Positions 1,488 to 32,815 of a DNA stretch of 64,000 nt are shown here, one piece after another (within the stretch, counting starts at the first letter, position 1; each line of letters starts with the position of its first letter). This DNA comes from an uncultured Flammeovirgaceae bacterium. Lineage in GTDB: Bacteria > Bacteroidota > Bacteroidia > Cytophagales > Cyclobacteriaceae. Where the stretch lies: contig CAJWQD010000003.1 in assembly GCA_913045135.1 (NCBI GenBank), forward strand, positions 1 through 64,000, in the 5' to 3' direction. Under the pieces are notes generated by a model. It was given only the letters and a program-made list of their open reading frames with translations. It was not told the origin of the DNA and searched no databases. The position numbers and the translations under genes were made by a program.

Positions 1488-3644
1488 ATGAAAAATCAAA
1501 TTTATGTAAGCTTTTTTATCTGTTTTCTTTTTGCTTCTCTTGCTGTGAATGCACAGCAACCTATTGCTCACTTTGATTTTGAGGATGTTCGGGTGGAGCG
1601 TAGCGTTGTGGAGATGGTCCGAGGTGAAACATATGTCCCTAAGGAGGTCTTCGGTTACGTAAAAGAGATAGTTGAGAACATTGTTTATGATCTGGAGGGT
1701 AAGTATTACAAGCAGGTGAAAGGGGTAAAAGGAAAAGCTTTGCTTCTTGACGGATACTCAGCATTTATAAATCTTGAAACCATCTATGATGAAGAAAATG
1801 ACGATAAGCTGATTAGACCGATACCAGAAATTGAAAATGGTAAGTTTACTGTCGAGGCTTGGCTGGCACTTGGCGCTTATCCCAAGAACACCACTCCTAT
1901 ATGGAGTCATCGCAGACCTATTTCAGAAGGTTCCGCACAAGGGTATAGCCTGGAGCTAGATGCTTGGGGACGTCCCGAGCTTAAGGTTGCTACCAAAAAC
2001 GGTAAGACGGAGAGTCTCATTAGCGATCAACCAATTAAGCTTAGGAAGTGGACGCATGTTGCGGCCAGCTATTCTGATGAATCGGGTATGTCACTATATT
2101 TAGATGGAAAGCTAATTGGTAAAAGAAGCATTGAGGGTGGATATGGTGAGATTTTTCACCATGTACCGGTAAGTATACTGATCGGAAAGAGTAGAGTACC
2201 AGCAAGACCTACTGGCACCATACGTCCTTATGGTACAGAATCAAGTCATACTTATATTGACGGAATAATTGATGAAATTAAGCTTTTCGATCGCGTGCTG
2301 AGTGATGACGAGATCTATAATAGCTTCAAGCGAAATAGTACTAGTGAAGATCCTGAGCTACCACTGAGAAAATTACCCTCAGGGCCTCAATCGCCAGGCA
2401 TTTTCAGGGCTGTAAATACAACGCTTGATTATTATCCTTCCTGGGATGCTCCCTGGGCTTCAGGAGAGAATGCCGATATAGTAGTTCAATTTGATGAGTC
2501 TGATTGCAAGTTTGTTTTTTGGAGAGGAACGAGTTATATACCTAGTTGGGTTACGGAAAATGGCATTCATTATAACAATGGCTTTAATGAAGGGTGGAAT
2601 GATCATGGAAGCTGCGAACCTATGTCTGATAAAAAGGCGAAGTATTCCTCAGTAAAAATCGTCGAGAGCAATCCTGCAAGGGTAGTTGTAAAATGGAGGT
2701 ATGGATTGGTGGATGTACTAGGGAGTTTTGCCTTTGAGGATCCGGAAACAGGGTGGGGTGATTGGACAAACGAGACCTACTACATATACCCAGATATGAC
2801 TGCCGTACGTAAGGATGTGCTACTGAGTAATGCTCCTCACGCCGCACATGAATGGCAAGAAAGTATGATGGTGCTTTCACCAGGCCAGAGACCAGAAGAT
2901 GTTCTTGAATATGCAGCGCTGACTCTAGGTAACATAGAAGGAGACACAAAAACTTTTTCATGGGAAGATGAGGTTCCACCTGGTAACCCACGAGAGCCAA
3001 AGGATAAGAGTGCCCAAGTGATAAACACTAAATCCAAATATAAGCCATTTTCTGCCATCAGAGCACAGGACATTGACGGGATGGATGTTTACGCTGGTGA
3101 GATACGAAGAGATGTTAGCGTTTTTCCGTGGTGGAATCACTGGCCTGTCGCCCCCCGCCCAACAGACGGTCGATATGCAAATTATGAAGATCGGGCGGCG
3201 CATGCTTCACTTTCGCACTGGTTTTGGAACGAGTATGAGTCCACTGACCGATCAATGACTAAGATCATGCTTTGTGGTATGACCAAAGGTGATATACAGG
3301 ATATTATACGCCTCAATCGAAGTTGGTCAAATCCAGCAGAAATTTCAGTAAAGGGTGCAAAGTTGGCGAAGTATCGACCGGATGAAAAAGCATATTATAT
3401 CTCTGAGGTTGAGGATATCGTTTTTGTAGAGTTGAATGGTGGATTGAATTCACCAATTGTCAATCCTGCTTTCGTAATCAAAAATTGGGGCAGTTCTAAA
3501 ATAGAGGTAACAGTCAATGGAACCAAAAAAGAGATCGACAAAAATCTGCGGGTAGGATACAAGAATACGCTTCAATCCCAAGATATAATCATATGGATGA
3601 GAAATGATAGTGATAATTTAAAAATTATCTTCAAAAAAATATAA
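1488..3644 (+). CDS. Secreted LamG-domain protein of unknown activity
   Basis: 718 residues with a Sec signal peptide (residues 1-22, ending VNAQQ). Residues about 95-280 form a LamG/concanavalin-A-like jellyroll: the run FTVEAWLAL, WTHVAASY, LYLDGKLIG and IDGIIDEIKLFDRVLSDDE is typical. Such domains bind or cleave glycans. The remaining 430 residues, rich in Trp and Tyr and holding EMHEW-like and PWWNHWPVAPRPTDG segments, do not match a family I can name; a beta-sandwich glycan-active domain is possible. The gene sits 83 bases before susC on the same strand, so it probably belongs to the polysaccharide locus and acts in the periplasm or outside. No lipobox and no T9SS tail were seen. Confidence 0.75.
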   Translation: MKNQIYVSFFICFLFASLAVNAQQPIAHFDFEDVRVERSVVEMVRGETYVPKEVFGYVKEIVENIVYDLEGKYYKQVKGVKGKALLLDGYSAFINLETIYDEENDDKLIRPIPEIENGKFTVEAWLALGAYPKNTTPIWSHRRPISEGSAQGYSLELDAWGRPELKVATKNGKTESLISDQPIKLRKWTHVAASYSDESGMSLYLDGKLIGKRSIEGGYGEIFHHVPVSILIGKSRVPARPTGTIRPYGTESSHTYIDGIIDEIKLFDRVLSDDEIYNSFKRNSTSEDPELPLRKLPSGPQSPGIFRAVNTTLDYYPSWDAPWASGENADIVVQFDESDCKFVFWRGTSYIPSWVTENGIHYNNGFNEGWNDHGSCEPMSDKKAKYSSVKIVESNPARVVVKWRYGLVDVLGSFAFEDPETGWGDWTNETYYIYPDMTAVRKDVLLSNAPHAAHEWQESMMVLSPGQRPEDVLEYAALTLGNIEGDTKTFSWEDEVPPGNPREPKDKSAQVINTKSKYKPFSAIRAQDIDGMDVYAGEIRRDVSVFPWWNHWPVAPRPTDGRYANYEDRAAHASLSHWFWNEYESTDRSMTKIMLCGMTKGDIQDIIRLNRSWSNPAEISVKGAKLAKYRPDEKAYYISEVEDIVFVELNGGLNSPIVNPAFVIKNWGSSKIEVTVNGTKKEIDKNLRVGYKNTLQSQDIIIWMRNDSDNLKIIFKKI

Positions 3645-3727
3645 GTGAAAAACGGGTAAAATCAGAATAGGCTATTATGAGAATTCAACTCCGTAATTTT
3701 TGAGATATCATTTATTAAATAATTAGG

Positions 3728-6700
3728 ATGAGAAAAGTATTTTTATTTTCCTTACTATATGCATTTTTGCTAGCTTCCGTCATAGCTCAGACTAGTAGTG
3801 TGGTGGGGGTCGTTACTGATGAATCCGGTAATCCTCTACCAGGTGTTCTTATTCAGTTATCCGCAGAGCCTAGTAAAGGAACAATTTCCGATATTAATGG
3901 ATATTATAGGATAGATGTAGCACCTGCAGACATTCTAAAATTTTCATTTGTTGGATATATTTCTCAGGAAATTACTGTTGGATCGCAAACTAAGATCGAT
4001 ATAAAATTTGAACCAGATATTACCGCGCTGGACGAAATAGTGGTAGTGGGTTATGGTGTTCAAAAAAGGGAAAACCTTACAGGCTCAGTGACTCAAGTTA
4101 CTCCGGAGGCTTTAGCTGATCGTCCGACAATTAATCTTTCAGAATCATTATCAGGATTGGTCCCAGGGTTGCAAATAAGTACACCAAGTGGGGAGATTGG
4201 TGCAAGTTCGTCTTGGAACATACATGGACCAAATACAATAGGCGGAGGAAGTAGCGGAGGTGCCTTGATTTTGGTGGATGGCATTGAAACTAGTCCTGAT
4301 CTAATTAATCCAAATGATATTGAGAGCATAACAGTTTTAAAGGATGCGGCGTCTACAGCAATTTACGGATCCCGTGCACCTTATGGGGTTGTTCTAATAA
4401 CGACCAAAAGGGGAAAAAATTCTTCTAAGCCTCAATTTAATTTATCGACTAATATGCAGTGGCGAACTGCAATATCTGATTGGGATCTTTTGACAAATGG
4501 TAGACAATACGCCGAGTTCTTTAATGATTTAAACATCAATACATTTGGACTTGTTGATGAGAGCTTTGGATTCTTGGATTCCTGGTTTACAGAATATGAT
4601 CGCCGAATGGGTAATCCAGATTTACCAAAAGTTGAAGATGGAAATTACATGATTAACTTTCTCGGTATGAGTGTAACTGACGCTCCCGATTATTATCCAT
4701 GGATACAAGGGTTTTCCAATACAGATTGGTTTACAGAATTACACCGACAAAACGCACCCACGGAAAATTATGATTTCAATGTATCGGGTGGTTCGGACAA
4801 AGTTTCATACTATTTGTCCTTGGGATATCAAAATAGGGATGGTTTAAAAAGCCACTTGGTGATAGAGAATGAGAAGCGTTATACGATGAAAGCTCGTATT
4901 GATGCCGATGTAACGAGTTGGTTTAACGTCGGGTTTCAAACGTTATTTTCCAATTTTGTGAGAGATCTACCTGTTTCTTCGGGATTTATAAACCCGGTCA
5001 ATTTACATCCGACGATCCCTATTAAGGATCCCAATGGTAATTATCTGAGAGGATCACTTAATGAGCTTGTGGATGGTGGCCGTAGTGATGAGAACGTTCG
5101 AAATTATAATAATACAATCAGTGCTACTCTAACTCCAATTGATGACCTAACCATTAGAAGTAATTTCACATGGAAAAATTATAATTTAAATAATGAATCA
5201 TTTGAAGAAGAATACCCTTTTTTTTATACATCTCTTGGAAGGCCCGTAATTTTTGGATGGCAGGGGCAACAAGACGCAATCACCAGGATTGAACAGACTT
5301 CAACTTACCAAAACTTTGATTTAACAGCTAATTATGTAAAAACTTTTGGAAATCATAATTTCTCCGTTTTATTGGGAATGCAAGCTGAGGAAGATTATTT
5401 ACTTGGAATATCTGCTTCTCGAGGAGGAATGATTTTGCCGGTTCCTTCTTTCAATTTTGCCTTTGGCAATAGTATTGATTTGAGTGACGAAGTAGCTGAA
5501 TGGAGCACTTTGGGCTATTTCGGAAGGCTCAATTATAATTTTCAAGGGAAGTATTTATTGGAATTTAATGTTAGAAGAGCAGGTGCCTCTCGTTTTGCTG
5601 AGGAAAGCAGATGGGGTACATTTGGTGGGATTTCAGCGGGCTGGAATATTCTTAACGAGAGTTTCCTTACAATTAACGAGAGCTTTATGGATACCTGGAA
5701 ATTTAGGGCTTCGTACGGAGTCACTGGAAACGCTAATGTTGATAGAATTTATCCAGCTAGTACGGTGCAGGGTAGTATTCGAAGTTATTATTTTAATGGT
5801 CAAAGAATACCTCAGCTGCCTACTCCTGAATTGGTAAATACTGATCTTACATGGGAAAAACCACAAAAATTTGTGGTAGGTACTGATATATCAATGCTAG
5901 ATGGAAGGTTAAACCTTACAGTTGATATGTATCAACAGGTTACCAAGGATATGGTGGGACCGGCTCCGCCAAAGCCAGATCTTTTAGGTGCTGAAATGCC
6001 AAGCGAAAATAATACAGAATTGACTACCAAAGGGTTTGATTTGAGTTTTGCTTGGAGAGACAGAGTAGGTGAAGTCGGCTATAACATAGGCATGAACTTA
6101 AATAGATGGAAAGCGGAGATAACTCAATATTATAACCCTGACGGAACCCTTGATGGAATCAATACGGATGAGGTATACTACAGAGGGCAACAGTGGGGAG
6201 AGATATGGGGATTAACTACTGATAAAATATTATCTTCGGAAGAAGATGTTGTTGCATATAACGCACTGAATTTTGAAAATGTAACTACCCAAAATGATAT
6301 GGTGAAAGAGGGAAGTATTGCTTACAAAGACCTTGACGGAGACGGAAATATTGATTTTGGAGAGTTACAACTTGAAAATCACGGTGATTGGAGCGTGATC
6401 GGCAATACCATCCCAGATCTTTTCTATAATTTTATAGTTGATGTTGATTGGAGAGGATTTGATGTTAGAGTATTCCTTAATGGTCAAATTGGTGGAGATT
6501 GGGATCCTGGAATTGAATCTGCAGAGGATGGTTGGTCAACTTCATCGACAACCCATTTTTTTGCTTCGGGCGGCTTTGATATGATGTTGCTGACTAACGA
6601 TAATTATGAGAACTATTGGCGGGAGGATAGAAAAGACGCTTACTTTTTTGCTCCATTTGATGGGGATTTCGGAGGGAACTGGGGTCAGATAAATGCGCGT

Positions 6701-6934
6701 TCCCAAACACGCTATTTACAAGATTTGACTTATTTGAGGATCCAAAACCTACAACTGGGATACACCCTGCCGGTAGGATGGATTAATAGGATGAGCCTAA
6801 CTCAGTGTAGAGTCTATGCTAGTATGGAAAACTTATACACGTTTCAGCGACTACGTGTGGGAGATCCGGCATTGCCTGGATTGAATTATCCTCGTCAACG
6901 CTCTGTTTCTGTTGGAATTAATATTCAGTTCTAA
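3728..6934 (+). CDS. SusC/RagA-family TonB-linked outer membrane receptor
   Basis: 1068 residues; imports oligosaccharides through the outer membrane using TonB energy, capped by its SusD partner. A signal peptide (1-20) is followed by a carboxypeptidase-regulatory-like domain (about 24-105), the TonB-box region DEIVVVGYG near 103, the plug (about 115-230, with ILVDGIE and the family hallmark DAASTAIYGSRAPYGVVLITTK) and a beta barrel ending in aromatic GINIQF. Length is normal for SusC. SusD follows directly, its start 20 bases after the stop. No N-terminal STN signalling domain is present, so it probably does not talk to an anti-sigma factor. Confidence 0.96.
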   Translation: MRKVFLFSLLYAFLLASVIAQTSSVVGVVTDESGNPLPGVLIQLSAEPSKGTISDINGYYRIDVAPADILKFSFVGYISQEITVGSQTKIDIKFEPDITALDEIVVVGYGVQKRENLTGSVTQVTPEALADRPTINLSESLSGLVPGLQISTPSGEIGASSSWNIHGPNTIGGGSSGGALILVDGIETSPDLINPNDIESITVLKDAASTAIYGSRAPYGVVLITTKRGKNSSKPQFNLSTNMQWRTAISDWDLLTNGRQYAEFFNDLNINTFGLVDESFGFLDSWFTEYDRRMGNPDLPKVEDGNYMINFLGMSVTDAPDYYPWIQGFSNTDWFTELHRQNAPTENYDFNVSGGSDKVSYYLSLGYQNRDGLKSHLVIENEKRYTMKARIDADVTSWFNVGFQTLFSNFVRDLPVSSGFINPVNLHPTIPIKDPNGNYLRGSLNELVDGGRSDENVRNYNNTISATLTPIDDLTIRSNFTWKNYNLNNESFEEEYPFFYTSLGRPVIFGWQGQQDAITRIEQTSTYQNFDLTANYVKTFGNHNFSVLLGMQAEEDYLLGISASRGGMILPVPSFNFAFGNSIDLSDEVAEWSTLGYFGRLNYNFQGKYLLEFNVRRAGASRFAEESRWGTFGGISAGWNILNESFLTINESFMDTWKFRASYGVTGNANVDRIYPASTVQGSIRSYYFNGQRIPQLPTPELVNTDLTWEKPQKFVVGTDISMLDGRLNLTVDMYQQVTKDMVGPAPPKPDLLGAEMPSENNTELTTKGFDLSFAWRDRVGEVGYNIGMNLNRWKAEITQYYNPDGTLDGINTDEVYYRGQQWGEIWGLTTDKILSSEEDVVAYNALNFENVTTQNDMVKEGSIAYKDLDGDGNIDFGELQLENHGDWSVIGNTIPDLFYNFIVDVDWRGFDVRVFLNGQIGGDWDPGIESAEDGWSTSSTTHFFASGGFDMMLLTNDNYENYWREDRKDAYFFAPFDGDFGGNWGQINARSQTRYLQDLTYLRIQNLQLGYTLPVGWINRMSLTQCRVYASMENLYTFQRLRVGDPALPGLNYPRQRSVSVGINIQF

Positions 6935-6953
6935 ATCTGATGTGGAAGTAATT

Positions 6954-8699
6954 ATGAAAAGAATAATATTCAAATTAATAATAGCTTATATATACCTTTT
7001 TGTATTGACTGGGTGTGAAGAGGACTTTCTCGACAAAGAGCCACAAACGAGTAAGTCTCTTCAATCATTTGGGTCAGTTGAAGAAATTCGTGCATATCTC
7101 AATCAATTTTATTCTGATGAAAGTGGAGATATTATCATGGGCAAAGATGGGGGAACAGACAATCAAGGTATTGATCCCGTGGACTTGGTTAATGATAATT
7201 ACATTGTTCCCTCAGCAGACGGAAATTGGACTGATGCTTATGCTAATATTCGCACGGTAAACATACTCTTGGAGAATAATAGTGTTCCAGAAGCCGAATC
7301 CCGCAATCTAATTGGTGAGGCTCATTTTTGGCGCTCATGGCAATATTTTCAGTTACTGAAAAGATTTGGAGGGGTACCGATAGTTGAGAGCGTTATTCCA
7401 ACTAACGATGATGATTTGTTGAATACTCCTCGAAGTTCCCGATCAGAAACCGCGGACTTCATAATTGAAGACTTAGATAAAGCCATATCTATGATGGATG
7501 CACGTGATGAGAACAGGGGCAATCAGTGGATAAATAAGGATGTAGCCTTGGCACTTAAATCTCGAGTGGCGCTTTACGAGGGAACTTGGGAGAAATATCA
7601 TGCCGGAACAGATTTTGGTATACCTGGATCGAATGGATCAAGCTATTTAATTCAAGCTGTTGATGCGGCTCAGATTCTCATGAATTCTGGGAGATATGGA
7701 ATTTGGAAAGGATCAGACCAGCCATATACGGATTTGTTTATTCAGGAGGATTTGAGTTCAAATCGTGAAGTTATTTGGTGGAAGGAATACAATATCCAAG
7801 ATCAATTTGTTACTCGAATGATGACCATTTGGGGTGGGTTTGTTACCAAAGATTTTATCGATACATATTTAGAGGTCGATGGCAATCCCATTGCAGTCAA
7901 TAACGAAGATAGTCCATCCTCTGGTACCTCATACTTTTGGGTAACTGAAAGCGATATGCATGAAGATCGAGATCCTAGACTTGTTCAAACAATACTGCTT
8001 TCGAGCGATATTGTAAATGATACTGAAAAGCAAAATCTTCCAGGCAATCAATCTTTTTCATTAACAATGCGCAAATATTATGTTGGTGATTTATCAAGAA
8101 GGTTTGGTGACGATGCATCAAATAGTGGGGAAATACTTTTTAGATATGCCGAAGTTTTACTGAATTTAATCGAAGCCAAGGCAGAATTAGAGGATCTTGG
8201 TGAGCTTGACTATCTAGTAACTGACGACGATATCGACGCTACTGTAGGATTATTACGTAACCGACTAGAATGGACTTCTTGGACAAGTGGAAGTAGTCTC
8301 TCAGATTTTGAGAGAGGAGGAGCAGAAAATGTTCCATTACTTCAATATCAACGTAATATGCTTGCTGGAAGTAAAACCAATCTTATTCATGCAATACGGC
8401 GAGAGAGAAGGGTAGAACTGATTTGCGAAGGATTTAGGTGGGATGACTTAATGCGCTGGAAAATGGGTGAACTTTTACGACATTACCTCAATAGAGGTAA
8501 TACCAAAAGCGTAATGAATGAAATAAATCAGACAGAGGCTGAGAAACCCATTTATTTTTACGATGAAAATGAGTTTAGTTATTCGGCTAATTGGGAGGGA
8601 ATTGATGGACTGAATTTTATTGAAAGTAAAAGTTATTTGTACCCTCTACCCTTTAGACAAATTCAACTCGCAGATTATGAACAAAATCCGGGATGGTAA
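6954..8699 (+). CDS. SusD/RagB-family glycan-binding lipoprotein
   Basis: 581 residues. The start at 6954 gives a clean lipoprotein signal, MKRIIFKLIIAYIYLF then LTGCEEDFLDKEP; an earlier in-frame ATG at 6912 overlaps susC and would hide the signal. The opening DFLDKEPQTSKS and the C-terminal pattern (IRRERRVELICEGFRWDDLMRWK, then YPLPFRQIQL) are diagnostic of SusD. It is anchored on the cell surface, binds the target glycan and delivers it to the SusC pore. Tetratricopeptide-like helices (about 90-240) carry the canonical AEAHFWRSWQYFQLLKRFGG-type stretch. Confidence 0.95.
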   Translation: MKRIIFKLIIAYIYLFVLTGCEEDFLDKEPQTSKSLQSFGSVEEIRAYLNQFYSDESGDIIMGKDGGTDNQGIDPVDLVNDNYIVPSADGNWTDAYANIRTVNILLENNSVPEAESRNLIGEAHFWRSWQYFQLLKRFGGVPIVESVIPTNDDDLLNTPRSSRSETADFIIEDLDKAISMMDARDENRGNQWINKDVALALKSRVALYEGTWEKYHAGTDFGIPGSNGSSYLIQAVDAAQILMNSGRYGIWKGSDQPYTDLFIQEDLSSNREVIWWKEYNIQDQFVTRMMTIWGGFVTKDFIDTYLEVDGNPIAVNNEDSPSSGTSYFWVTESDMHEDRDPRLVQTILLSSDIVNDTEKQNLPGNQSFSLTMRKYYVGDLSRRFGDDASNSGEILFRYAEVLLNLIEAKAELEDLGELDYLVTDDDIDATVGLLRNRLEWTSWTSGSSLSDFERGGAENVPLLQYQRNMLAGSKTNLIHAIRRERRVELICEGFRWDDLMRWKMGELLRHYLNRGNTKSVMNEINQTEAEKPIYFYDENEFSYSANWEGIDGLNFIESKSYLYPLPFRQIQLADYEQNPGW

Positions 8700-8742
8700 A
8701 TACATTTTAAGTATTGCAATTTTTAAAAAACTTAAGTATCAA

Positions 8743-8776
8743 AAGACATTGGTAAACGGGTTCTTCCAAGTGTCTT
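8743..8776 (+). other. Intercistronic stem-loop between susD and the FISUMP gene
   Basis: Arms AAGACA-TTGG (8743-8752) and CCAA-g-TGTCTT (8766-8776) pair with one bulged base around a 13-base loop. There is no following T-run, so it is not an ordinary terminator. It may stabilise or process the upstream susCD message (inference). Confidence 0.4.
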
Positions 8777-8823
8777 AAGGTATATATTGATAAATTATAA
8801 GAACCCAAAATTTAAACATAAAC

Positions 8824-10215
8824 ATGAATCAAATGAAGACTAGAATAAGTAACAATTTAAAAAGTATGGTTTTGTTGTCTATTATTGGAGTTCTCATATT
8901 TTTTGGGAGCTGCGGTGATGACGATGAACCGACAGCTGCGGCTACAGTGGAAGAAAATAGTCCACCTGCAGCACCAGCTCTGTCAAGTCCAACAAACGGT
9001 AGCGATGACATAGATCCATCATTATCCATAGTATTGTCGTGGGAAGAAGCCTCTGATCCAGATGGTGACGCTGTGGCTTACTACGTTTATTTTGACACCG
9101 ATACTTCCTCATGGACAGGAACGTCGGCAGGTACAATTACTGAATATACCCCTTCGGGTGTTACTGGATTAACCAAGTATTTCTGGAAAGTTGAAGCAAG
9201 GGATGTTAATAATAACGCTACATCATCTGAAACATGGAGTTTTACGACGATAAATTTATCTGAAGACAAAGCTACAATTACTTGGACTTCAGGGGATGGA
9301 ACAAGTAATGGAGATGTTGGTACGATGACAGACTTAAGAGATGTACCTGCAAAATCTTATGGTGTACAGGTAATTGCGGGATCAGTGTGGATGACGGAAA
9401 ATTTAGCCTTTTTACCGGAAGTTCATCCTGCCTCGGATGTTAGTGACGGATTGGCTAGATATTACGTGTATGGATATGACGGCACCGATGTTGCTGAAGC
9501 AAAATTAGCCACAATAGACACCCTTGCAGCAGATTGGAATGGTGATGGCAGTCAAACCACCGATGCAATTAATACTTTCGAAACTTTTGGAGCATTATAT
9601 AATTTAAAGACTATTGATACTGGGTGTCCTTCAGGATGGCATGTGCCGAATGCTGAGGAATGGTCAGCATTATTAGTTGCAAACGGGTGGCCTTCAGATA
9701 CATTAGATTTAAATTATGCACATCCTGATAATTCATGGATTCCTGAAATGATAGCTGAAGCTGAAAGCAATCCCGGAAATGTTGGTTTGTATTTTGGATG
9801 GCCTATCTTTTACTACTACCATGGAGAAAATACAGGTGTAAAACTTGCGGATAAGAGTACTTGGCTAGCAGATCCTAGCTTCGAATTTGTCTATCCTACT
9901 GTAACCGATCCAGATGACGAGGAGCAGGCAGAACCTGAGCTGAATCAGCAAGATGGAATTGCATTAATGGCATCTAATGCGAGCACAGATCGTAATTTAT
10001 CTGGATTTTCTGCAAAAGCAGGGGGTTTTGTTTCAGGAGAGGGTGCTGCATTTACTGGACTTGGTTCGTTGGCTTCTTTCTGGTCATCAAGTGACGGAGA
10101 GGATGGGCCGATGTACGTTAACTTAGATGCAGAGATGCCTGGAGCACAAAAGTTTAGTTATGAGGAAGGAGGATCTCCCGGATTATCTATTCGTTGTGCC
10201 CTAGATCAAGAGTAA
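8824..10215 (+). CDS. FISUMP-domain surface lipoprotein, SusE position
   Basis: 463 residues. A lipoprotein signal ends at Cys30 (IFFGSCGDDDE); a start four residues later is equally possible. Residues about 45-143 form a fibronectin-type/Ig-like domain (WEEASDPDGDAVAYYVYFD ... YFWKVEARD). Residues about 180-462 are the Fibrobacter succinogenes major paralogous (FISUMP) domain: VWMTENLAF, CPSGWHVPNAEEWSALL, FSAKAGG and FWSSSDGE...SIRCALDQ. The gene stands third after susC and susD, where SusE/SusF-type surface glycan-binding proteins usually sit, so a carbohydrate-binding role at the surface is likely; FISUMP domains have no established catalytic role. A strong terminator follows directly. 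Confidence 0.85.
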   Translation: MNQMKTRISNNLKSMVLLSIIGVLIFFGSCGDDDEPTAAATVEENSPPAAPALSSPTNGSDDIDPSLSIVLSWEEASDPDGDAVAYYVYFDTDTSSWTGTSAGTITEYTPSGVTGLTKYFWKVEARDVNNNATSSETWSFTTINLSEDKATITWTSGDGTSNGDVGTMTDLRDVPAKSYGVQVIAGSVWMTENLAFLPEVHPASDVSDGLARYYVYGYDGTDVAEAKLATIDTLAADWNGDGSQTTDAINTFETFGALYNLKTIDTGCPSGWHVPNAEEWSALLVANGWPSDTLDLNYAHPDNSWIPEMIAEAESNPGNVGLYFGWPIFYYYHGENTGVKLADKSTWLADPSFEFVYPTVTDPDDEEQAEPELNQQDGIALMASNASTDRNLSGFSAKAGGFVSGEGAAFTGLGSLASFWSSSDGEDGPMYVNLDAEMPGAQKFSYEEGGSPGLSIRCALDQE

Positions 10216-10230
10216 TTACTTTTCCTTAAT

Positions 10231-10271
10231 ATAAGAAATAAGGCTATTCTTAGCCTTATTTCTTATTTTTT
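10231..10271 (+). terminator. Strong intrinsic terminator after the susCD block
   Basis: A perfect 16-bp stem (10231-10246 with 10251-10266), four-base loop TTCT, then a T-rich run. It closes the LamG-SusC-SusD-FISUMP unit and separates it from the enzyme block that begins at 10422. The inverted repeat is read directly; the terminator function is inference from its form. Confidence 0.85.
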
Positions 10272-10286
10272 GGACTCAACTAAAAT

Positions 10287-10312
10287 CTTTTAAATTAAAT
10301 CGAATTTAAAAG
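10287..10312. repeat. AT-rich inverted repeat upstream of the enzyme block
   Basis: Perfect 10-bp arms CTTTTAAATT and AATTTAAAAG around a 6-base centre. It lies about 110 bases before the G8 protein gene and 16 bases past the terminator, where an operator for the second PUL transcript could lie. AT-rich palindromes of this length also arise by chance. Confidence 0.3.
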
Positions 10313-14080: not shown

Positions 14081-14093
14081 CGTAATAAGACGA

Positions 14094-22534: not shown

Positions 22535-22556
22535 TTTGAAACTTAATCTTCAATTT

Positions 22557-24152
22557 ATGAAAAATATTAATTTCTTGATATGTGCTTGGCTAACATTAAG
22601 TTTCGTTCATGCGCAGCACGATGAATTCAATGTTCGAGTTATAGCGGATCACATATATGCTGAGCATTTGTATAGAGATAAATTATTGAAGGACCCTTAT
22701 CGACCTCTATATCATTACGTAATTCCGGAGGGTATGGCTCATCCATTTGATCCAAATGGGGCGTTCTATTGGAAAGGCAGATATCACCTTTTCTACATAA
22801 TACAGACAGTGAGACCGAAACCATTTTATCGAGGTGATGCGTGGGCACACATATCGAGTCATGATTTGATTCATTGGAAACAACATCCCACAGCTCTAAA
22901 ACCAACTGATGACACACCAGAACGAGCTATATATAGTGGTAATATGTTTTTGAACAAAAAGGGCATTCCGACAATCATGTATCAAGGATTGGGTGCTGGA
23001 AATAGTATTGCAATAAGTGCCGGTGATGACTGGTTAGATTATTGGGATCGTCATCCTAATAATCCGGTAATACCCTATGCCGAATATTCTTTAGACAATG
23101 ATGGAGCCGAGTATCGAACGATTCTAGATAAAATGCCAGACTATGGGCAGTATGATATATGGGATCCACATTGCTGGTTGGATGGAGATACCTATTATAC
23201 AATTACAGGTAACAACGAACTCTGGCCTGGTAAAGACGCCTTGTTTAAATCTAAAAATCTGAAGGATTGGGAACTTTTGGGTGATTTTTTTCATCATGAA
23301 CCAATAGAGGGGACGCTCGATTGTCCTGATTTTTTTCGGTTAGGTGAGAAATTTGTTCTTCTATACTTAAGAAATGGGTTAGAATATGTAATTGGTGATT
23401 TTAAGGCTGAGCAGTTTTATCCAGAAAAACGAGGAACTATGACATGGAACATTGGGGCTGGATATGCTCCCGAAAGCTTGGTGGATTATAAGGGTCGTAG
23501 GATTATGTGGGCAGCACTCAATGATAGTCGTACGGGCTGGGGGGATATAGATAATTTCATTACTAAACATGCATGGGCCGGTACTCTGACCCTTCCGAGG
23601 GAACTATCGCTTGATGAAAATAATAATCTTAAAATTAAACCCATTGATGAGCTAAAGGTATTAAGATATGATTCCATCAAAATTGAAAATCTTAATGTCA
23701 ATGAGGAGATGGTGCTCGAGAAGATTAGAGGAAACTCAATGGAGCTAAAATTATCAATAAATCCTCGAAAAGCTGAATATTTGGGAATAAAGGTCTGTGC
23801 ATCAGTTGATGGACAAGAGGAAACAGTTTTGACATATTATCCATCAAAAAACGAATTTAAAATAGACCTTACAAAATCCTCATTAAATAATGAGTACATG
23901 GAGGGATATTTGTGGGAAAAAGATAAAATTCAAAAAGCGAAATTATCACTTGGACGAAATGAAAACCTTGACCTTAGAATTTTTATAGATCGTTCGGTGA
24001 TTGAGGTTTTTGTTAATGAAAAGCTCGCATTAGTACAAAGGATTTATCCAGTGATGAAGGAGAGCGATCAGGTGATACTTTTTAGTAATGGTGGAAGTAT
24101 TCAGGTTCCAATATTGGAGAGTTGGAAACTTCATCCATCTAATCCATATTAA
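22557..24152 (+). CDS. GH32-family protein with altered catalytic motifs
   Basis: 531 residues with a Sec signal (MKNINFLICAWLTLSFVHA, then QH); periplasmic. An upstream TTG at 22536 is less likely because it would place extra residues before the signal. Five-bladed propeller plus C-terminal beta-sandwich typical of GH32. The nucleophile motif HPFDPNGAFYW (Asp65) is intact. The usual RDP reads WDP (Asp203 in DIWDPHCW), and the usual EC acid/base motif reads LDCPDFF, placing Asp255 where Glu is normal. It may thus be a slow or differently specialised fructosidase, a fructosyltransferase, or a binding protein. Family call firm; activity uncertain. Confidence 0.88.
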   Translation: MKNINFLICAWLTLSFVHAQHDEFNVRVIADHIYAEHLYRDKLLKDPYRPLYHYVIPEGMAHPFDPNGAFYWKGRYHLFYIIQTVRPKPFYRGDAWAHISSHDLIHWKQHPTALKPTDDTPERAIYSGNMFLNKKGIPTIMYQGLGAGNSIAISAGDDWLDYWDRHPNNPVIPYAEYSLDNDGAEYRTILDKMPDYGQYDIWDPHCWLDGDTYYTITGNNELWPGKDALFKSKNLKDWELLGDFFHHEPIEGTLDCPDFFRLGEKFVLLYLRNGLEYVIGDFKAEQFYPEKRGTMTWNIGAGYAPESLVDYKGRRIMWAALNDSRTGWGDIDNFITKHAWAGTLTLPRELSLDENNNLKIKPIDELKVLRYDSIKIENLNVNEEMVLEKIRGNSMELKLSINPRKAEYLGIKVCASVDGQEETVLTYYPSKNEFKIDLTKSSLNNEYMEGYLWEKDKIQKAKLSLGRNENLDLRIFIDRSVIEVFVNEKLALVQRIYPVMKESDQVILFSNGGSIQVPILESWKLHPSNPY

Positions 24153-24154
24153 TT

Positions 24155-25207
24155 ATGAAAAAGTTATTTCTAATATTTTCATATTTATGTGCCTTGAATG
24201 CTTTGTCACAAGAGTGCAATATTGTTGAATTAATTCGCAGCACAGGAATTGATAAGTATTCAGATATTACATATTTGTCTATGAAGAAGCACCCTGAATT
24301 GGATGATGTGAAAAACTATTTCTTTAACACCAAAGATTGTAAGTGTTTTGAGGGAGGGTCATATTTTGTGGGTTTGAAAGATATGGGGGCTAAAAATTTG
24401 ATAGTTAACCTACAGGGAGGAGGAGCATGCTGGTCAGGTTTTTTTGAATGTAAGGAAGATGTTGACATTGAGGAATTTGAAAGCGTTGAGAAAGATCTTC
24501 ATAAACCGAATACAGTACTCTCATGGAATACAACCTTCATTCCGTATTGTGACGGAAGCAACTACATGGGTGATAATACGGTGGATTATGATGAAAATGG
24601 AATAACAGATCATAGTCATTGGGGAATCAGGCACCTTAGTGCTGGACTCAATCTGGCCAAATCTGAGCTGGAAGAGCCAGATAAAATTCTCATTACTGGA
24701 TGCAGTGCTGGTGGATATGGTACATTTCCTGCCATGTTACTGGCAAGATTAAAATTCCCAAATGCTAGAATTTATGTGCTAAATGAAAGTGGTCCAGGTA
24801 TGACTGATGCTAATAAGAATGGTATATGGGATTTGGTTAGGGAGAATTGGGGTATGGATGAGTGGTTGCCAAATCAATTTGATGAAGGTCAGAACTCACT
24901 ACTCCCACTTTATAGTTGGATGCTGGGGCATGATCCCCTGATCAAGGTAGCAGTATTTTCAAGTTACCATGATGCGGTGCTGGCGAATGAATTTCTGGGC
25001 ATTACTGGGACGGAATTCAAAAATCGTTTATTGAAGGATTCTGAGATCATTCAACAGGAATTTCCAGATCGGTTCAAAAGATTTTTTATTAAGGAAGACT
25101 CACATTGTGTAGAGGATTACTTTTATGAAATAGACGGAATCTCTTATGCCGAATGGGTAAGACATTTTGTAAATGATGATACTGACTGGATAGATATAAT
25201 GGAATAG
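24155..25207 (+). CDS. Pectin acetylesterase / Notum-like carboxylesterase
   Basis: 350 residues with a Sec signal (residues 1-18, ending LNALSQ). An alpha/beta-hydrolase of the PAE/Notum family: the oxyanion stretch NLIVNLQGGGACWSG near 87, nucleophile Ser184 in GCSAGGYG and a C-terminal His in DSHCVEDYF. Many paired Cys residues fit a secreted, disulfide-bearing enzyme. Bacterial members are thought to remove O-acyl groups from glycans, which would expose the chain to the neighbouring glycosidases. It follows the GH32 stop by two bases and is followed by another gene after one base, so it is firmly within the operon. Confidence 0.82.
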   Translation: MKKLFLIFSYLCALNALSQECNIVELIRSTGIDKYSDITYLSMKKHPELDDVKNYFFNTKDCKCFEGGSYFVGLKDMGAKNLIVNLQGGGACWSGFFECKEDVDIEEFESVEKDLHKPNTVLSWNTTFIPYCDGSNYMGDNTVDYDENGITDHSHWGIRHLSAGLNLAKSELEEPDKILITGCSAGGYGTFPAMLLARLKFPNARIYVLNESGPGMTDANKNGIWDLVRENWGMDEWLPNQFDEGQNSLLPLYSWMLGHDPLIKVAVFSSYHDAVLANEFLGITGTEFKNRLLKDSEIIQQEFPDRFKRFFIKEDSHCVEDYFYEIDGISYAEWVRHFVNDDTDWIDIME

Positions 25208-25208
25208 T

Positions 25209-27815
25209 ATGATTAACAAAATTATTATCCTGTCGTTTATTTTGACTTCATATTTTGCATCGGGGCAAGTCCTTGTAGCCACTGAGGCAAACCATTTAAT
25301 CAAAATGGCTGCTAAGGAAGTTCGGAGGTATACATACTTGAGGACAGGTAAGTTGTTAGATATTAAATCTAACATTAATATCGATAATCAAAGGATAATA
25401 GTGGGTACGCACGATGCAAAGGTTATTAGAGAATTAACGGAATTGAGAGCACCCAAGGGGGGATTTTTTATAAAATCCGTTGACTCAAAATATGGAGAAA
25501 CTTTACTCATTTCAGGTGATACGAATATCAGTACACTTTATGCCGCATATCGATATGCAGAGCTTATTGGTTGCAGATTTTATTTACACGGAGATGTCAT
25601 CCCGGATCAAAAAATAGGTTTAAAATTTACTGGTTTTGACGAGCAAGGTCAGCCAACAACTAAAGACGAAAGGCAGTGGGAGACTCGAGGGATTCAACCA
25701 TTTCAAAACTTTCCTGCTGGATCTGTAATGTGGGGTGTTGAAGATTGGAAAATGCACATCGCCCAATTACCAAAAATGGGGATGAATTTCATAGGGCTAC
25801 ATACCTACATGTCGGATCCAGAAGATGATCACGTTGGAGACTATGGCCCAAATCTTAACGTTTGGATCGGTCACGAAAATGATCTGAATTCGGATGGAAC
25901 TGTAGATTTTGCTTATGATGCTACTTTTTTTCATACCCATCAGAAAATCATTGGATGGGGAAAGACTAATACTTCCGATCTGAAAGGAGGAGCCAATCAG
26001 CTTTTTCCCTCTAATGGATATCCCTCCGAGATCATAGGTGAATCCTATCATACCGACCAAAGTGGGTATATACGATCTTTTAAGGAGACAGGTACACTTT
26101 TCAAAAATGTATTTACCTATGCCAATCTACTGGGAGTTACTACAGCTACCGGTGTAGAGCTGCCTTTAGGTAGGGATAAAGAATCTGGTTCAGATGATTT
26201 GGTCAATGGCGTTCCTGATGTTTTACAAGATCGGTTGATCAACGAATACGGACTGGATCCTCTCTCCGATGAAGCATCCAAAGCACTATATCGGGGCATG
26301 TATCGATGGCTGATTTATAATCAGATTCCAGTTAATTATTTCTGGATTTGGACTACTGAAATCTGGATGCCCTGGGGCGGAGCCGGACGTGATTCTGAGC
26401 GTATCCAGGCAGCCAAAGATAATCTGAAAATAGCCGTAGAGGCATGGGAGGAAATGGAAGTGAAACCTTTTGATCGATTTGCACTTGGAGGTTGGGCATT
26501 TGGAGCGCAGGGTAATCCAGACGTTTTTGGTGATATTCTTCCAAGTATTCAAGATGCTTATTCTTTCATGAATCCACCCTACAATATGAAAGGGCGACAT
26601 ATGAAGACTGAAGAATGGATTGATCAGGTACCAAAAGAGCGCGTTAAATGGCCTTTTACCTGGATGGAGTATGATTATTCACTCGAACAACCTTCTTTCC
26701 ATATGTATCGGGTACTAGAAGATGGACAAATAGCATGGGAACAACATGCAGATGGATTTATGGGAGAGTTTTGGCGTACTCGGATGATCGGCCCACAGTT
26801 TGCCGCGGTAAAAGATCTGTCATGGGATTATTCGCTAACAGATAAAGAAATCATATCAGATCTTCCAATGAGTCATCAAAATAGAAATAAAAAAATTGAT
26901 CAAATATATATGGATTGGGCGATTCACGAATTCGGTAATAACGATGCAGCAAAAAGAATAGCCTCTGATATGGCAGCTTTTGAAAAACCTGATGATAATC
27001 GCTTTATGAATGTAACTAATTTCACTGAAGGAGCAGATGATATTTATTCTCAGGGATATATTACGGGGGACGACTGGGGGAGTGATCACATCTGGGGCGC
27101 ATGGGAGAATGAAGCCCCTAAACTCAATTGGATTGCTGAGTGGGAAGAATTAAGGATTACAATCGAAGGACAAGGTAATTTAGCCAGATTTGACTATTGG
27201 ATGAATACTATGAAATCTTACCGTCTAATGGCTAATATATCATCAGAAATCAATCAATATAAAATCAAAACAGATAAAGGAGCGTTGGAGAGTGCTGCTG
27301 CGCATCGTTCAAATCTAGCCAGTCTCTGGGAAAAACTCATGAGCTTGTTAGTTCAGCGAGTTCATGATGAAGTAGATTTAGGAGTCATCCTCAATCTTCA
27401 GTGGCGGTCGTGGGATAATTGGATTGTAGGTAAATACGACAGGGAATTTCTGAAGGCCGGTGGACAATTACCTGCAGATCATGCCCCCTCTATGGACTAT
27501 CAGGGAGAAGCTTTTATCACCTGTATGCCAATTAGAACACATATCCTAAATAAAGAAAATTATCAGGTCAAAGCAGTCATAATGGGACAAGTGAGCGAAG
27601 TTATCATTTATTATAGGAAGTTAGGTTCTGAGGAGTTTGAATCCTTACCCATGCTCCATGTGAAAAGGGGGGTTTATCAGATTCAACTATCTGATCAGGA
27701 TGAAGATTTTGAATGGTATGTTAAAGCCAAAACCGATCTGGGAGATGTAGTTTATCCCGCCACCGCTGGTGCAGAAACTTTATCTCAATATCAAACAGTT
27801 ATCGTATTAAACTAA
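25209..27815 (+). CDS. Large secreted putative glycosidase with GH67N/GH20b-like N-terminus
   Basis: 868 residues, Sec signal 1-19 (ending YFASGQ). Residues about 20-130 (TEANHLIKMAAKEVRRY ... QRIIVGTHDA ... LYAAYRYAELIGCRFYLHGD) resemble the small alpha/beta domain in front of alpha-glucuronidases (GH67N) and hexosaminidases (GH20b). A probable TIM barrel follows (about 150-560), with candidate acidic residues in NYFWIWTTEIWMPWGG and FTWMEYDYSLEQ, then a helical part and a C-terminal beta domain (about 760-868). The family cannot be assigned by eye. Neighbours and tight spacing make it part of the glycan pathway. Its stop shares one base with the next start. Confidence 0.65.
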   Translation: MINKIIILSFILTSYFASGQVLVATEANHLIKMAAKEVRRYTYLRTGKLLDIKSNINIDNQRIIVGTHDAKVIRELTELRAPKGGFFIKSVDSKYGETLLISGDTNISTLYAAYRYAELIGCRFYLHGDVIPDQKIGLKFTGFDEQGQPTTKDERQWETRGIQPFQNFPAGSVMWGVEDWKMHIAQLPKMGMNFIGLHTYMSDPEDDHVGDYGPNLNVWIGHENDLNSDGTVDFAYDATFFHTHQKIIGWGKTNTSDLKGGANQLFPSNGYPSEIIGESYHTDQSGYIRSFKETGTLFKNVFTYANLLGVTTATGVELPLGRDKESGSDDLVNGVPDVLQDRLINEYGLDPLSDEASKALYRGMYRWLIYNQIPVNYFWIWTTEIWMPWGGAGRDSERIQAAKDNLKIAVEAWEEMEVKPFDRFALGGWAFGAQGNPDVFGDILPSIQDAYSFMNPPYNMKGRHMKTEEWIDQVPKERVKWPFTWMEYDYSLEQPSFHMYRVLEDGQIAWEQHADGFMGEFWRTRMIGPQFAAVKDLSWDYSLTDKEIISDLPMSHQNRNKKIDQIYMDWAIHEFGNNDAAKRIASDMAAFEKPDDNRFMNVTNFTEGADDIYSQGYITGDDWGSDHIWGAWENEAPKLNWIAEWEELRITIEGQGNLARFDYWMNTMKSYRLMANISSEINQYKIKTDKGALESAAAHRSNLASLWEKLMSLLVQRVHDEVDLGVILNLQWRSWDNWIVGKYDREFLKAGGQLPADHAPSMDYQGEAFITCMPIRTHILNKENYQVKAVIMGQVSEVIIYYRKLGSEEFESLPMLHVKRGVYQIQLSDQDEDFEWYVKAKTDLGDVVYPATAGAETLSQYQTVIVLN

Positions 27816-30001
27816 TGATAATGATATGTAAAATTGATTTGAGTAATCTCATGTTGCCTTTTATTGTGCTATTGGTATTGTCATGCAATCAATCCAGTGA
27901 GCCAATTGTCATTGCTACGTTTGATCATTCCCTGGAGAACTGGATAAAGGAAGGAAAAGCATTTGGTGAGGGGCCGGTAAAGGAAACTATGGGATATTAT
28001 GGTGAGGCACATCTCTCAAGTCTCAATGAGCTCAATGAGCCATCCACTGGTAGACTGACCTCTCTGGAATTTAGAATAGAAAGAAATTACATACATTTTC
28101 TGCTTGGTGCCCGTGAGATAGATTTCATGAATGAAAAAGGTGACATGTCCATTGAGTTACTTCTAAATGGCGAGGTAGTAAGATCAAAAAAGCCCGAAGA
28201 ATTTCACGCTATGTTTCATGCTGGTTGGAATGTCTCAGAATTTAAAGGTGAGATGGTTCAAATAAGTGTAATGGATGAGGACGATCGACCTTTTGTTTAT
28301 ATCGATGTGGATCATATTGTACAGAATAATATTCCTTTAGAGGGTATTGTGACAGAGCGTATCATTGAGATGAGTTCAGGTACCATTAATATTCCTATCA
28401 AGGAAAATGCGCCTAGGTATTATTTTGAGATTTATGCTAATGGTGAGTTAATTAGAGCCTTTGATGCTTCCCTCGCAACAACTGATGATATTGATTTCTG
28501 GGTGAAACATGATATGTATGAATGGTCTGGAGAGCATGTTAAAATAAGAACTTATCAATACTTTGAAAATAAGTCAAAGATACTTGATAACCTTGTTGTT
28601 AGTGATGGTCTTATAGATTCTGATAATTTGTACAAGGAAAATCTCAGACCCCAATTTCATTTTACTGCCAAGCGAGGCTGGCTTAATGATCCTAATGGAC
28701 TAGTCTTTCATCAAGGTGAGTATCACTTGTTTTATCAGTCTAATCCTTATGGAAATGATTATGGTAGAAATGATTATAATAAGACATGGGGCCATGCGGT
28801 TAGCGAGGATCTGGTTCATTGGAAGGAATTGCCTGCAGCCATCAATCCCGATCATCTTGGGTCGATTTATTCAGGCTCGGCTATTATCGATCATAACAAC
28901 AGCACAGGATTCGGATTACAGCAAAATCTTGCGTTGGTTGCGCTTTACACATCAGCTGGAACTCGCAACCGCTGGTCTTTGGGGGAACCTTTTACCCAGT
29001 CGGTTGCATATAGTCTGGACAATGGAAGAACCTTCACCAAGTATGACGGTAATCCAGTATTTGAAAATATGGGATATATCAACAGAGATCCAAAAGTATT
29101 TTGGTATGAGGCGGGTCAGCATTGGGTGATTGTGTTGTATTTGGATCATGGGGCATTCGTATTTTTCACTTCTGATGATCTCAAAGAATGGAAACAACAA
29201 AGTACTATTCAAATTGAGGATCTTGGTATCTCGGAGGTGTCTGCATTTGAAGACTGTCCCGAACTTTTTGAATTGCCAATTGACGGAAATCCAGAAAACA
29301 CAAAATGGGTATTGTATGCTGGATCAGGTGATTATGTTTTAGGTGATTTTGATGGTAAAAAATTTATTCCTAAAACAGGATTGCTAAAATATAACCACGG
29401 TGATTGTTTCTATGCCTCACAGACTTTTAATAACGTCCCACTGGAAGATGGTCGCAGGATTCAAATGGCGTGGGGCATAGTAGACTTTCCAGAGATGCCA
29501 TTTAATCAGATGATGACATTTCCTGTCTCATTGACCTTAAGAAGTACAACGAACGGGGTAAGGATGTTTGCAAATCCAGTGAATGAAATTGAGAAACTGT
29601 ATAACTCAATGAAATCATATACTGACATTTATTCTCAACCAGGTGAGAATTTACTTGTGGGCTTTAATAGTGGCTTATATGATATATCGATGGACGTATT
29701 ATCAAGTTCACAGGGTAACATTATATTCGAGGCTAATGGAAGAGAAATCAACTTCGATTTAGATCTGCAAACGATCGCCAGCGAAGATTTGGAGATTAAT
29801 TATCAAATCAAAGATGCTGAAATGAATATTCGTTTATTGGTCGACATAAAGTCCATTGAATTGTACCTGAATGATGGTGAAATTTATATACCTTTAAGAA
29901 TTGATGGCAAAATCGAGTTAGAGTCGATTTCACTGACATCAGATTCGCCTGTAAATATTCAGGAATTGAAAATAAGAACTCTTCGATCAATATGGAACTA
30001 A
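27815..30001 (+). CDS. GH32 fructosidase-like lipoprotein with extra N-terminal domain
   Basis: 728 residues. Lipobox Cys24 (LVLSCNQSSE). Residues about 30-265 form an added beta-rich region with two glycan-binding-like halves; the GH32 propeller starts near 280 (RPQFHFTAKRGWLNDPNGL). Nucleophile Asp292 (WLNDPNG) and transition-state Asp425 (NRDPKVFW) are intact. The acid/base region reads AFEDCPELFEL: Asp480 directly precedes Cys-Pro, with Glu479 one residue earlier, unlike the usual Glu-Cys-Pro. The typical SGSAIID, TKWVLYAGSG and RIQMAWG segments are present. Likely role: removal of fructose from fructan or sucrose-like ends at the outer membrane. The start overlaps the previous stop by one base. 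Confidence 0.9.
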   Translation: MIMICKIDLSNLMLPFIVLLVLSCNQSSEPIVIATFDHSLENWIKEGKAFGEGPVKETMGYYGEAHLSSLNELNEPSTGRLTSLEFRIERNYIHFLLGAREIDFMNEKGDMSIELLLNGEVVRSKKPEEFHAMFHAGWNVSEFKGEMVQISVMDEDDRPFVYIDVDHIVQNNIPLEGIVTERIIEMSSGTINIPIKENAPRYYFEIYANGELIRAFDASLATTDDIDFWVKHDMYEWSGEHVKIRTYQYFENKSKILDNLVVSDGLIDSDNLYKENLRPQFHFTAKRGWLNDPNGLVFHQGEYHLFYQSNPYGNDYGRNDYNKTWGHAVSEDLVHWKELPAAINPDHLGSIYSGSAIIDHNNSTGFGLQQNLALVALYTSAGTRNRWSLGEPFTQSVAYSLDNGRTFTKYDGNPVFENMGYINRDPKVFWYEAGQHWVIVLYLDHGAFVFFTSDDLKEWKQQSTIQIEDLGISEVSAFEDCPELFELPIDGNPENTKWVLYAGSGDYVLGDFDGKKFIPKTGLLKYNHGDCFYASQTFNNVPLEDGRRIQMAWGIVDFPEMPFNQMMTFPVSLTLRSTTNGVRMFANPVNEIEKLYNSMKSYTDIYSQPGENLLVGFNSGLYDISMDVLSSSQGNIIFEANGREINFDLDLQTIASEDLEINYQIKDAEMNIRLLVDIKSIELYLNDGEIYIPLRIDGKIELESISLTSDSPVNIQELKIRTLRSIWN

Positions 30002-30029
30002 AATTCACGATGTCAGAAAAAAAAAAGTT

Positions 30030-30446
30030 ATGAAATCAAAATTCATTATTTTATTCATCTTGATTACTATATTTGCTAGTTGTGATCAAGAAAAAAAACA
30101 GGAAGTAGAAGCAGTGACTAAACGTGTTGGTATGGTGATAAAGCTAAAAGAAGAAAATCTAGCAGAATATAGAAAGCTTCATTTAGACGGTAATACTGGA
30201 GTCCGAGATCTGCTCATTAAATATAATTTACATAATTTTTCCATCTTCCTTACTCAACTTGAAGATGGTAATTATTACGAATTTGGCTATTACGAGTATA
30301 CAGGTGACGATTTTGATAATGACATGAGGGCGCTTTCAGAAGAACCTCGAAATATTGAATGGTTAAAGATTTGTAATCCGATGCAGGAGCCGATAGGAGA
30401 AGCTAAGGGTTGGAAGGAAATGGAAACGGTTTACTTTAATCCATAA
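30030..30446 (+). CDS. L-rhamnose mutarotase-like (DUF718) lipoprotein
   Basis: 138 residues; the C-terminal ~105 match the whole RhaM fold: VGMVIKLKEENLAEYRKLH, HNFSIFLTQLEDGNYYEFGYYEY, DDFDNDMRALSE and WLKICNPMQEPI. RhaM enzymes interconvert alpha and beta anomers of L-rhamnose or related 6-deoxy sugars. Unlike cytoplasmic RhaM, this one has a lipoprotein signal with Cys18 (TIFASCDQE), so it works in the periplasm or at the surface. It is the last intact gene of the enzyme block, 28 bases after GH32. With a GH95 enzyme upstream, L-fucose or L-galactose is a reasonable substrate (inference). Confidence 0.85.
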   Translation: MKSKFIILFILITIFASCDQEKKQEVEAVTKRVGMVIKLKEENLAEYRKLHLDGNTGVRDLLIKYNLHNFSIFLTQLEDGNYYEFGYYEYTGDDFDNDMRALSEEPRNIEWLKICNPMQEPIGEAKGWKEMETVYFNP

Positions 30447-32808: not shown

Positions 32809-32815
32809 CTCCCCA

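Follow-up and report, generated by a model that had tools for sequence, protein, structure and literature searches.

Polysaccharide utilization loci (PULs) of the Bacteroidota typically unite a SusC/SusD pair, exported or lipoprotein carbohydrate-active enzymes (CAZymes) and a major facilitator superfamily (MFS) porter in one cluster. Fructan PULs, such as the levan system of Bacteroides thetaiotaomicron (BT1760), usually combine GH32-family proteins with a fructokinase and a hybrid two-component regulator. The GH32 fructosidases belong to clan GH-J, in which the Arg of the RDP motif is described as completely conserved (PMC3360783). Here we describe a 15-gene operon (g1 to g15, Table 1) at positions 1488-30446 of the window, i.e. 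the first 64,000 nucleotides of contig CAJWQD010000003.1 (contig C3) of an uncultured Flammeovirgaceae bacterium, whose assembled genome (GCA_913045135.1) comprises 2.1 Mb in 97 contigs and is 82% complete. Its SusC/SusD pair (g2, g3), its exported or lipoprotein CAZymes linked on the same strand and its MFS porter mark the operon as a PUL. Unlike the described PULs, it has no local regulator and contains two proteins, g13 and g1, without a match to a catalytic family. With fructan PULs it shares two GH32-family proteins (g11, g14), but both have lost the acid/base Glu (the EC Glu), and a GH95 protein, two GH3 proteins, a pectin acetylesterase (PAE)-family esterase and g13 are added.

We read the segment as one PUL of a Cytophagales-type host, directed at a complex, ester-bearing and apparently non-sulfated heteroglycan, and give this reading as a whole an even chance. 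The PUL itself is a variant of a familiar type; the new matter lies in g13 and in a clade of GH32-like proteins. Slightly less confidently, we propose that g13 would found a new glycoside hydrolase (GH) family, at home in the Planctomycetota and paired with GH3, and that, with a GH32-like clade that relies on another catalytic apparatus in place of the RDP Arg and the EC Glu, it would break down an aquatic heteroglycan with no known degradation pathway.

The g13 protein is probably a glycosidase of an unclassified family that is distantly related to GH115 and GH67 and a member of neither. Searches with Pfam and NCBIfam, the basis of the family calls in the operon, gave no match for g13 beyond the GH67 N-domain (27.4 bits, cut-off 24.3). 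In profile-profile comparison, the alignment of g13 with GH115 covered the N-domain and reached the first part of the barrel region (96%, E 2.7e-9); a second, helical segment followed in order (40%). GH67 aligned with g13 over the N-domain (92%). GH115 against GH67, for which a common core fold has been published (PMC3879575), scored 77% as a yardstick. Among solved structures, the N-domain part of the g13 profile matched GH67 and xylan alpha-1,2-glucuronidases (E 1e-4 to 2e-4), and a GH115 enzyme was found at E 0.08. By these alignments g13 may share its N-domain with the GH115/GH67 alpha-glucuronidases and, next in order, a short helical segment with GH115. It differs from them in a barrel region that remains unaligned and in its failure to match their catalytic Pfam models: with E values of up to 1 allowed, the GH115 model matched neither g13 nor a single one of 13 relatives, and the GH67 middle and C-terminal models did not match g13. 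E317, E384, E487 and D489 are among the acidic positions conserved in 90% or more of the aligned rows. The putative acid of GH115 is Asp-206 (PMC3879575); at this column, in a register set by eye, the window-type proteins read QNF and the distant relatives HDF.

Whole copies of g13 are rare. A search of 296 Bacteroidota genomes matched five, with a whole copy only in the own genome and matches of 84-138 residues in the other four. A profile of five relatives matched 17 of 395 genomes, whole again only in the own genome; the Bacteroidota matches elsewhere are short stretches, mostly of the N-domain. Plasmids gave no match. In the phylum to which a close relative in a Phycisphaerae metagenome-assembled genome (MAG) belongs, the five-row profile matched 18 of 392 genomes, and six further genomes of this phylum hold relatives that span both profile ends at 29-33% identity. 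In six of the 13 aligned family rows, all distant relatives (L106, L107, L109-L112), a malectin domain follows the predicted barrel region as an insertion; the g13 profile matched solved malectin/GH2-type chains over this insertion.

A pattern scan of a species-genome collection, which detects close relatives only, found g13 in four MAGs: a Flammeovirgaceae (L020, 91%), a Marinoscillum (L021, 87%; a member of the Cytophagales), a Bacteroidales (L022, 61%) and a Phycisphaerae genome (L023, 62%). Judging from their names, the source genomes are presumably marine. The Phycisphaerae MAG, of a class belonging to the Planctomycetota, encodes a GH3-g13 fusion: a single open frame of 1364 codons that runs to the contig end (L023:7832-11923), with 63% identity to g9 over 712 aligned residues in its first part and 63% to g13 over 636 residues in its second. 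A piece with the remainder of g13 (57% over 251 residues) sits at the end of another contig of this MAG, C76, and repeats the last 26 residues of the fusion piece. The gene in front of the fusion frame codes for a GH32-family protein that shares 39% identity with g14 and whose start looks Tat-like by eye, and the MAG also holds a g11 homolog (60%). Two genes in the window but a single chain in the Phycisphaerae MAG, g9 and g13 probably act together; most likely, g13 would work on the same oligosaccharide as the g9 GH3, in the step immediately preceding or following it. The Planctomycetota share part of the exo-enzyme set, namely g9, g11 and g13. The fusion provides a ready test pair for finding the substrate of g13, which, if it is a glycosidase, adds one more family to the GH115/GH67 group.

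The operon recurs in part in the two closest MAGs. The Marinoscillum contig is 85-94% identical to the window at the DNA level, and this identity is our only ground for placing the window in the Cytophagales. It starts inside g8, continues with g8-g15 in window order and then shares the downstream flank (85% over 3.8 kb, window 31562-35369). The Flammeovirgaceae MAG has g8-g14 in window order at a different site: except for 73 bases inside g15, no match to the window flank was detectable, and g15 was not found in L020. The recurrence of the gene order in both makes an assembly error in g8-g15 unlikely, and operon layout, repetition and the Phycisphaerae fusion together support a functional unit. 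In the Bacteroidales MAG, separate short contigs carry homologs of g7 (54%), g8 (64% in a 300-residue alignment that stops at a contig end), g11 (62%) and g13 (61%). Recent transfer was also considered on composition, and the GC difference proved too small to argue from: 0.34-0.42 in the operon genes against 0.32-0.38 in 17 tabulated neighbours, with overlapping third-position GC.

The two GH32-family proteins form the other unusual part of the locus. In g11 the Pfam GH32 N and C domains both scored above cut-off, and in g14 the N domain was matched and the C domain fell below cut-off. Like clan GH-J fructosidases, both retain the nucleophile Asp and the stabiliser Asp. Unlike them, both have Asp at the acid/base position, and g11 has WDP for RDP (Trp replaces Arg), whereas g14 keeps the Arg and Asp of this motif. 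As reference we used the 21 top-scoring GH32 loci from other Bacteroidota genomes (L153-L173), a set that leans to canonical enzymes with the weaker L174-L181 excluded; all 21 have the acid/base Glu. The Asp is shared by the g11 homologs in all four MAGs and by both g14 orthologs, and among three Phycisphaerae relatives of g14 one has Asp and two have Glu.

Both positions were then compared in 49 rows: g11, ten earlier proteins and all but one of the 39 loci L183-L221, the exception being L216, which yielded no row at the cut-off used. The RDP Arg is absent in 19 rows, or 17 once two duplicates are removed; these 17 show one gap at the acid/base column, one Glu (L213) and 15 residues that are Asp, Ser, Met or Ala. 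The 30 rows with Arg have Glu in 29 cases, g14 being the exception. The RDP Arg and the EC Glu are therefore nearly always lost together, in rows that are related and do not represent independent events. A group of 11 rows in the tree (support 100/99), with no reference inside, unites g11 and its homologs with a Ser-type clade, and g14 groups with proteins from Phycisphaerae and from a second locus of the own genome, some of which keep Glu. At E 1e-20, g11 matched 23 of 296 Bacteroidota genomes, with 36% as the highest identity once the own genome is set aside, and 17 of 236 genomes in the phylum of the Phycisphaerae MAG (best 60% and 45%). Titles and abstract openings retrieved in a literature search contained nothing recognisable as this gene set or as the paired Arg/Glu loss, which is weak evidence of absence. 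Given this near-joint loss in GH32-like proteins of Bacteroidota and Planctomycetota, a 'GH32' annotation can be misleading when it is taken to mean 'fructan'. Our picture of marine glycan turnover is drawn largely from annotations of this kind. These natural variants also make the role of the RDP Arg and the EC Glu testable.

We infer the activities, the substrate and the order of steps below from gene content, layout, homology, the fusion and the motif changes. The G8/beta-helix protein g5, secreted by the type IX secretion system (T9SS), perhaps together with g1, would cut the polymer extracellularly, and the SusC/SusD pair would take in oligosaccharides. In the periplasm, the PAE esterase g12 would strip acyl groups, and the exo-acting GH95, both GH3 enzymes, the two non-canonical GH32-family proteins and g13 would remove sugars singly. 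Mutarotase g15, perhaps g6, and porter g10 would condition and import the monosaccharides. Signal peptides or lipoprotein signals start the translations of the enzymes (by eye), so that sugars would be freed outside the cytoplasm before import by g10. Esters are expected in the substrate because of g12, and a beta-linked pentose or hexose because of the GH3 enzymes. Fucose- or galactose-type residues are expected from the specificities of GH95, and fructose is not assured. As no sulfatase family was matched by Pfam in the 15 genes, we read the glycan as apparently non-sulfated. GH95, two GH3 proteins, the PAE esterase and an exported mutarotase make the earlier suggestion of an acylated heteropolysaccharide a reasonable one.

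Several observations weigh against this scheme and against the proposed family. Genes g1-g7 lie beyond the contig ends of both closest MAGs, and their link to g8-g15 is seen in the window only. The endo-acting step, assigned to g5 or g1, is a guess from secretion and fold family; it and the substrate are the weakest links. 'Phycisphaerae' is the MAG's own record label. In 13 stretches around distant g13 relatives (L106-L114, L116-L119), no match to the other 14 window proteins was found at E 1e-5, so that the partnership of g13 is confined to the close subgroup. GH29 and GH78 genes are present in one of the stretches (L108). Over its C-terminal part, g13 matched a bacterial peptidylarginine deiminase at E ~1e-4. 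The AlphaFold model of g13 from a five-row alignment is poor (pLDDT 45.5), and Foldseek ranked GH115 first, GH84 next and GH67 from rank 23, with weak TM values of ~0.14. GH84 gave three matches in one of 61 genomes searched.

Another explanation is a PUL for a fructan (levan or inulin) or a fructose-capped glycan, in which both GH32 proteins are working fructosidases and the remaining genes serve mixed substrates. Two GH32-family proteins with the nucleophile Asp, the full RDP of g14 and the tree neighbours of g14 that keep Glu speak for it, and we nevertheless consider it unlikely in view of the Asp at the acid/base column of both proteins and the Trp in g11. Replacement of the acid/base Glu by Ala lowered the activity of a Bacteroides levanase ~4000-fold (PMC6560043), a precedent that also counts against this explanation, although Asp is milder than Ala. 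Moreover, neither a fructokinase nor a hybrid two-component regulator is found among the 15 genes, and the gene at the left edge, an ABC ATPase, is neither of them. A levan or inulin PUL as first choice was ruled out by the GH32 residues and these missing partners, in agreement with the original prediction, made from the sequence of the window without database searches, that this is no ordinary fructan PUL. Its statement that a hybrid regulator is missing holds locally; in the Bacteroidales MAG, however, the GH95 homolog (L071, 54%) has a SusC gene and a gene for a hybrid two-component regulator as immediate neighbours. Its 'fructose-capped' alternative is weakened, as it relied on two GH32 calls, neither with the acid/base Glu and one (g11) also without the RDP Arg.

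The target might also be small glycosides or glycolipids (e.g. glycosylated natural products or osmolytes), for which exo-enzymes, an esterase and a porter suffice. A recognised endo-glycanase family is indeed absent from the 15 genes, the nearest solved structures of g6 are of sugar isomerase/epimerase type, and 3-keto-disaccharide hydrolase genes occur in the second GH32 locus of the genome. A SusC/SusD pair and a T9SS-secreted beta-helix protein suit oligo- or polysaccharides better, and no oxidoreductase or 3-keto-glycoside hydrolase accompanies the AP_endonuc_2 gene g6 among the 15 genes; such 3-keto genes appear in one of 11 regions around related GH32-like genes, which leaves small glycosides improbable. 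An algal uronate- or rhamnose-rich, ulvan-like polysaccharide, with g13 as alpha-glucuronidase, would accord with the GH115/GH67 alpha-glucuronidases as nearest recognised relatives of g13 and with the RhaM-family mutarotase. We regard it as very improbable, because the operon has no sulfatase, polysaccharide lyase or uronyl hydrolase family, g13 fits neither catalytic model and the Asp-206 column reads QNF or HDF. Finally, the changed catalytic residues could mean that g11, g14 or g13 is a glycan-binding protein or a decayed non-enzyme in a reduced PUL. Long, conserved, stop-free frames across genomes, the identities of 61-62% that g13 and g11 retain across orders and phyla and the many invariant acidic residues of g13 make this quite unlikely. 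We retain the heteroglycan PUL as the preferred reading.

Table 1. Genes of the operon in the window, with the matches on which each assignment is based.
Gene	Product	Positions	Strand	Matches
g1	Exported protein, LamG domain and unclassified C-terminal region of ~430 aa	1488..3644	+	Laminin_G_3 only
g2	SusC-like TonB-dependent transporter	3728..6934	+	Plug, CarbopepD_reg_2
g3	SusD-like lipoprotein	6912..8699 (start 6954 fits better, by eye)	+	SusD_RagB, SusD-like_3
g4	FISUMP-domain lipoprotein	8824..10215	+	PF09603, TIGR02145
g5	T9SS-secreted G8 and CEMIP beta-helix protein	10422..13154	+	G8, CEMIP_beta-hel, Por_Secre_tail
g6	Exported AP_endonuc_2 (xylose-isomerase-like barrel) protein	13151..14080	+	PF01261; PDB 8tct, E 9e-8
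g7	GH95 lipoprotein	14022..16478 (start 14094 fits better)	+	PF22124, 229 bits; 7kmq, E 1e-59
g8	GH3 lipoprotein, beta-xylosidase type	16453..18771	+	PF00933/PF01915; best NCBIfam model Xyl3A, below cut-off
g9	Second GH3, lipoprotein	18831..21017	+	PF00933/PF01915
g10	Sugar-porter MFS transporter	21149..22534	+	PF00083; TIGR00879 above cut-off
g11	Exported non-canonical GH32-family protein	22536..24152 (searches used start 22557)	+	PF00251/PF08244
g12	Exported PAE/Notum-family esterase, GCSAGG motif	24155..25207	+	PF03283, 51 bits, cut-off 26.6
g13	Exported protein of unclassified family, 868 aa, GH67-type N-domain	25209..27815	+	
g14	GH32-family lipoprotein, Asp at acid/base position	27815..30001	+	PF00251
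g15	RhaM-family mutarotase lipoprotein	30030..30446	+	PF05336

Neighbouring genes in the operon overlap or are separated by gaps of at most ~210 bases. The parts named in the original prediction (two GH32, GH95, two GH3, PAE, G8/beta-helix, AP_endonuc_2 and RhaM) were all recovered in place on one strand, with Pfam matches above the curated cut-offs. What it saw as unusual, the mix of known families, stands, but it overlooked the unclassified g13, fused to the second GH3 type in the Phycisphaerae MAG; g1 with its LamG domain and the FISUMP protein g4, a possible surface glycan-binding protein, were likewise missing from its list.

The GH95 catalytic domain is present in g7, and its candidate Glu, Asn and Asp align with residues of 7kmq that we take to be catalytic. 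The two GH3 types of g8 and g9 are only ~30-34% identical to each other. With its PF03283 match and GCSAGG serine motif, g12 resembles Notum/pectin acetylesterases, and a sequence search found no solved relative of it. The candidate endo-enzyme g5 shares the G8 and CEMIP_beta-hel domains with animal CEMIP/TMEM2 proteins, from which it differs in being bacterial, T9SS-secreted and encoded in a glycan operon without recognised glycosaminoglycan enzymes; its proposed role derives from secretion and fold family. For TMEM2, hyaluronidase activity is disputed in the literature (PMC10206443, PMC10474455).

For g1, searches found LamG-type folds and no catalytic family. A PL40 ulvan lyase was considered for g1 and rejected: passages of a PL40 description list an (alpha/alpha)6 toroid and a beta-sheet domain and leave LamG unmentioned (PMC12915356), and g1 itself gave LamG-type folds only. 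Single-sequence folding of its C-terminal part gave a useless model (pLDDT 32). Five g1-related proteins (31-35% identical) lie beside or near GH32-family genes in other loci. One of these loci, on contig C28 of the own genome (L018, L019), contains two more GH32-family genes, one of the Ser-type clade without the acid/base Glu, together with a g1-like protein (31%), a GH43-like protein, esterases, two AP_endonuc_2 proteins, two proteins with 3-keto-disaccharide hydrolase and ThuA domains and a DUF6807/DUF7133/HEAT/cytochrome c protein. In the Bacteroidales MAG a GH32 gene is flanked on both sides by g1-like genes, and the genomes of the Flammeovirgaceae and Marinoscillum MAGs hold related GH32 and g1-like genes. 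As the two are found together in the C28 and Bacteroidales loci, g1-like proteins recur with GH32-family genes.

The C28 locus and contig C71 of the Phycisphaerae MAG also prompted the idea that 3-keto-glycoside oxidation is a common theme of non-canonical GH32 neighbourhoods. It was rejected: 3-keto-type genes occurred in one of 11 such regions (C71; C28 is not among the 11), as found with queries from the window, L018 and C71 only, which would miss distant versions. The seven regions compared around GH32s that keep Arg and Glu gave one weak Gfo/Idh match.

Other neighbourhoods of GH32-like genes were recorded as well. On C71 (L062, L063), the genes after the g11 homolog are a Ser-type GH32-like gene and others that by eye look like Gfo/Idh and AP_endonuc_2 types. 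Neither the RDP Arg nor the EC Glu is present in the GH32-like proteins of L203-L207, L209, L212, L219 and L220 from the phylum of the Phycisphaerae MAG and in L183 from Bacteroidota, with Trp, Ala, His, Tyr or Phe replacing Arg and Ser, Met or Ala replacing Glu. In the Bacteroidales MAG (L068), the g11 homolog adjoins an alpha-L-arabinofuranosidase gene, with an MFS transporter, an FGGY-type kinase, a DeoC-like aldolase and dehydrogenases on the same strand (by eye); these neighbours make a furanose other than fructose worth testing as substrate.

Downstream of the operon in the window, a DUF285 (Mycoplasma-type) protein (31574-31975) follows at once, and two tRNA-Leu genes (32723-32809 and 34806-34888) lie within 4.5 kb; with g8-g14 at another site in L020, they might mark an insertion site. 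Further on, 42770-47080 encodes a PKD protein of 1436 aa that carries a CHU_C type IX secretion domain; next to it lies a PorP/SprF-family gene (47203-48228).

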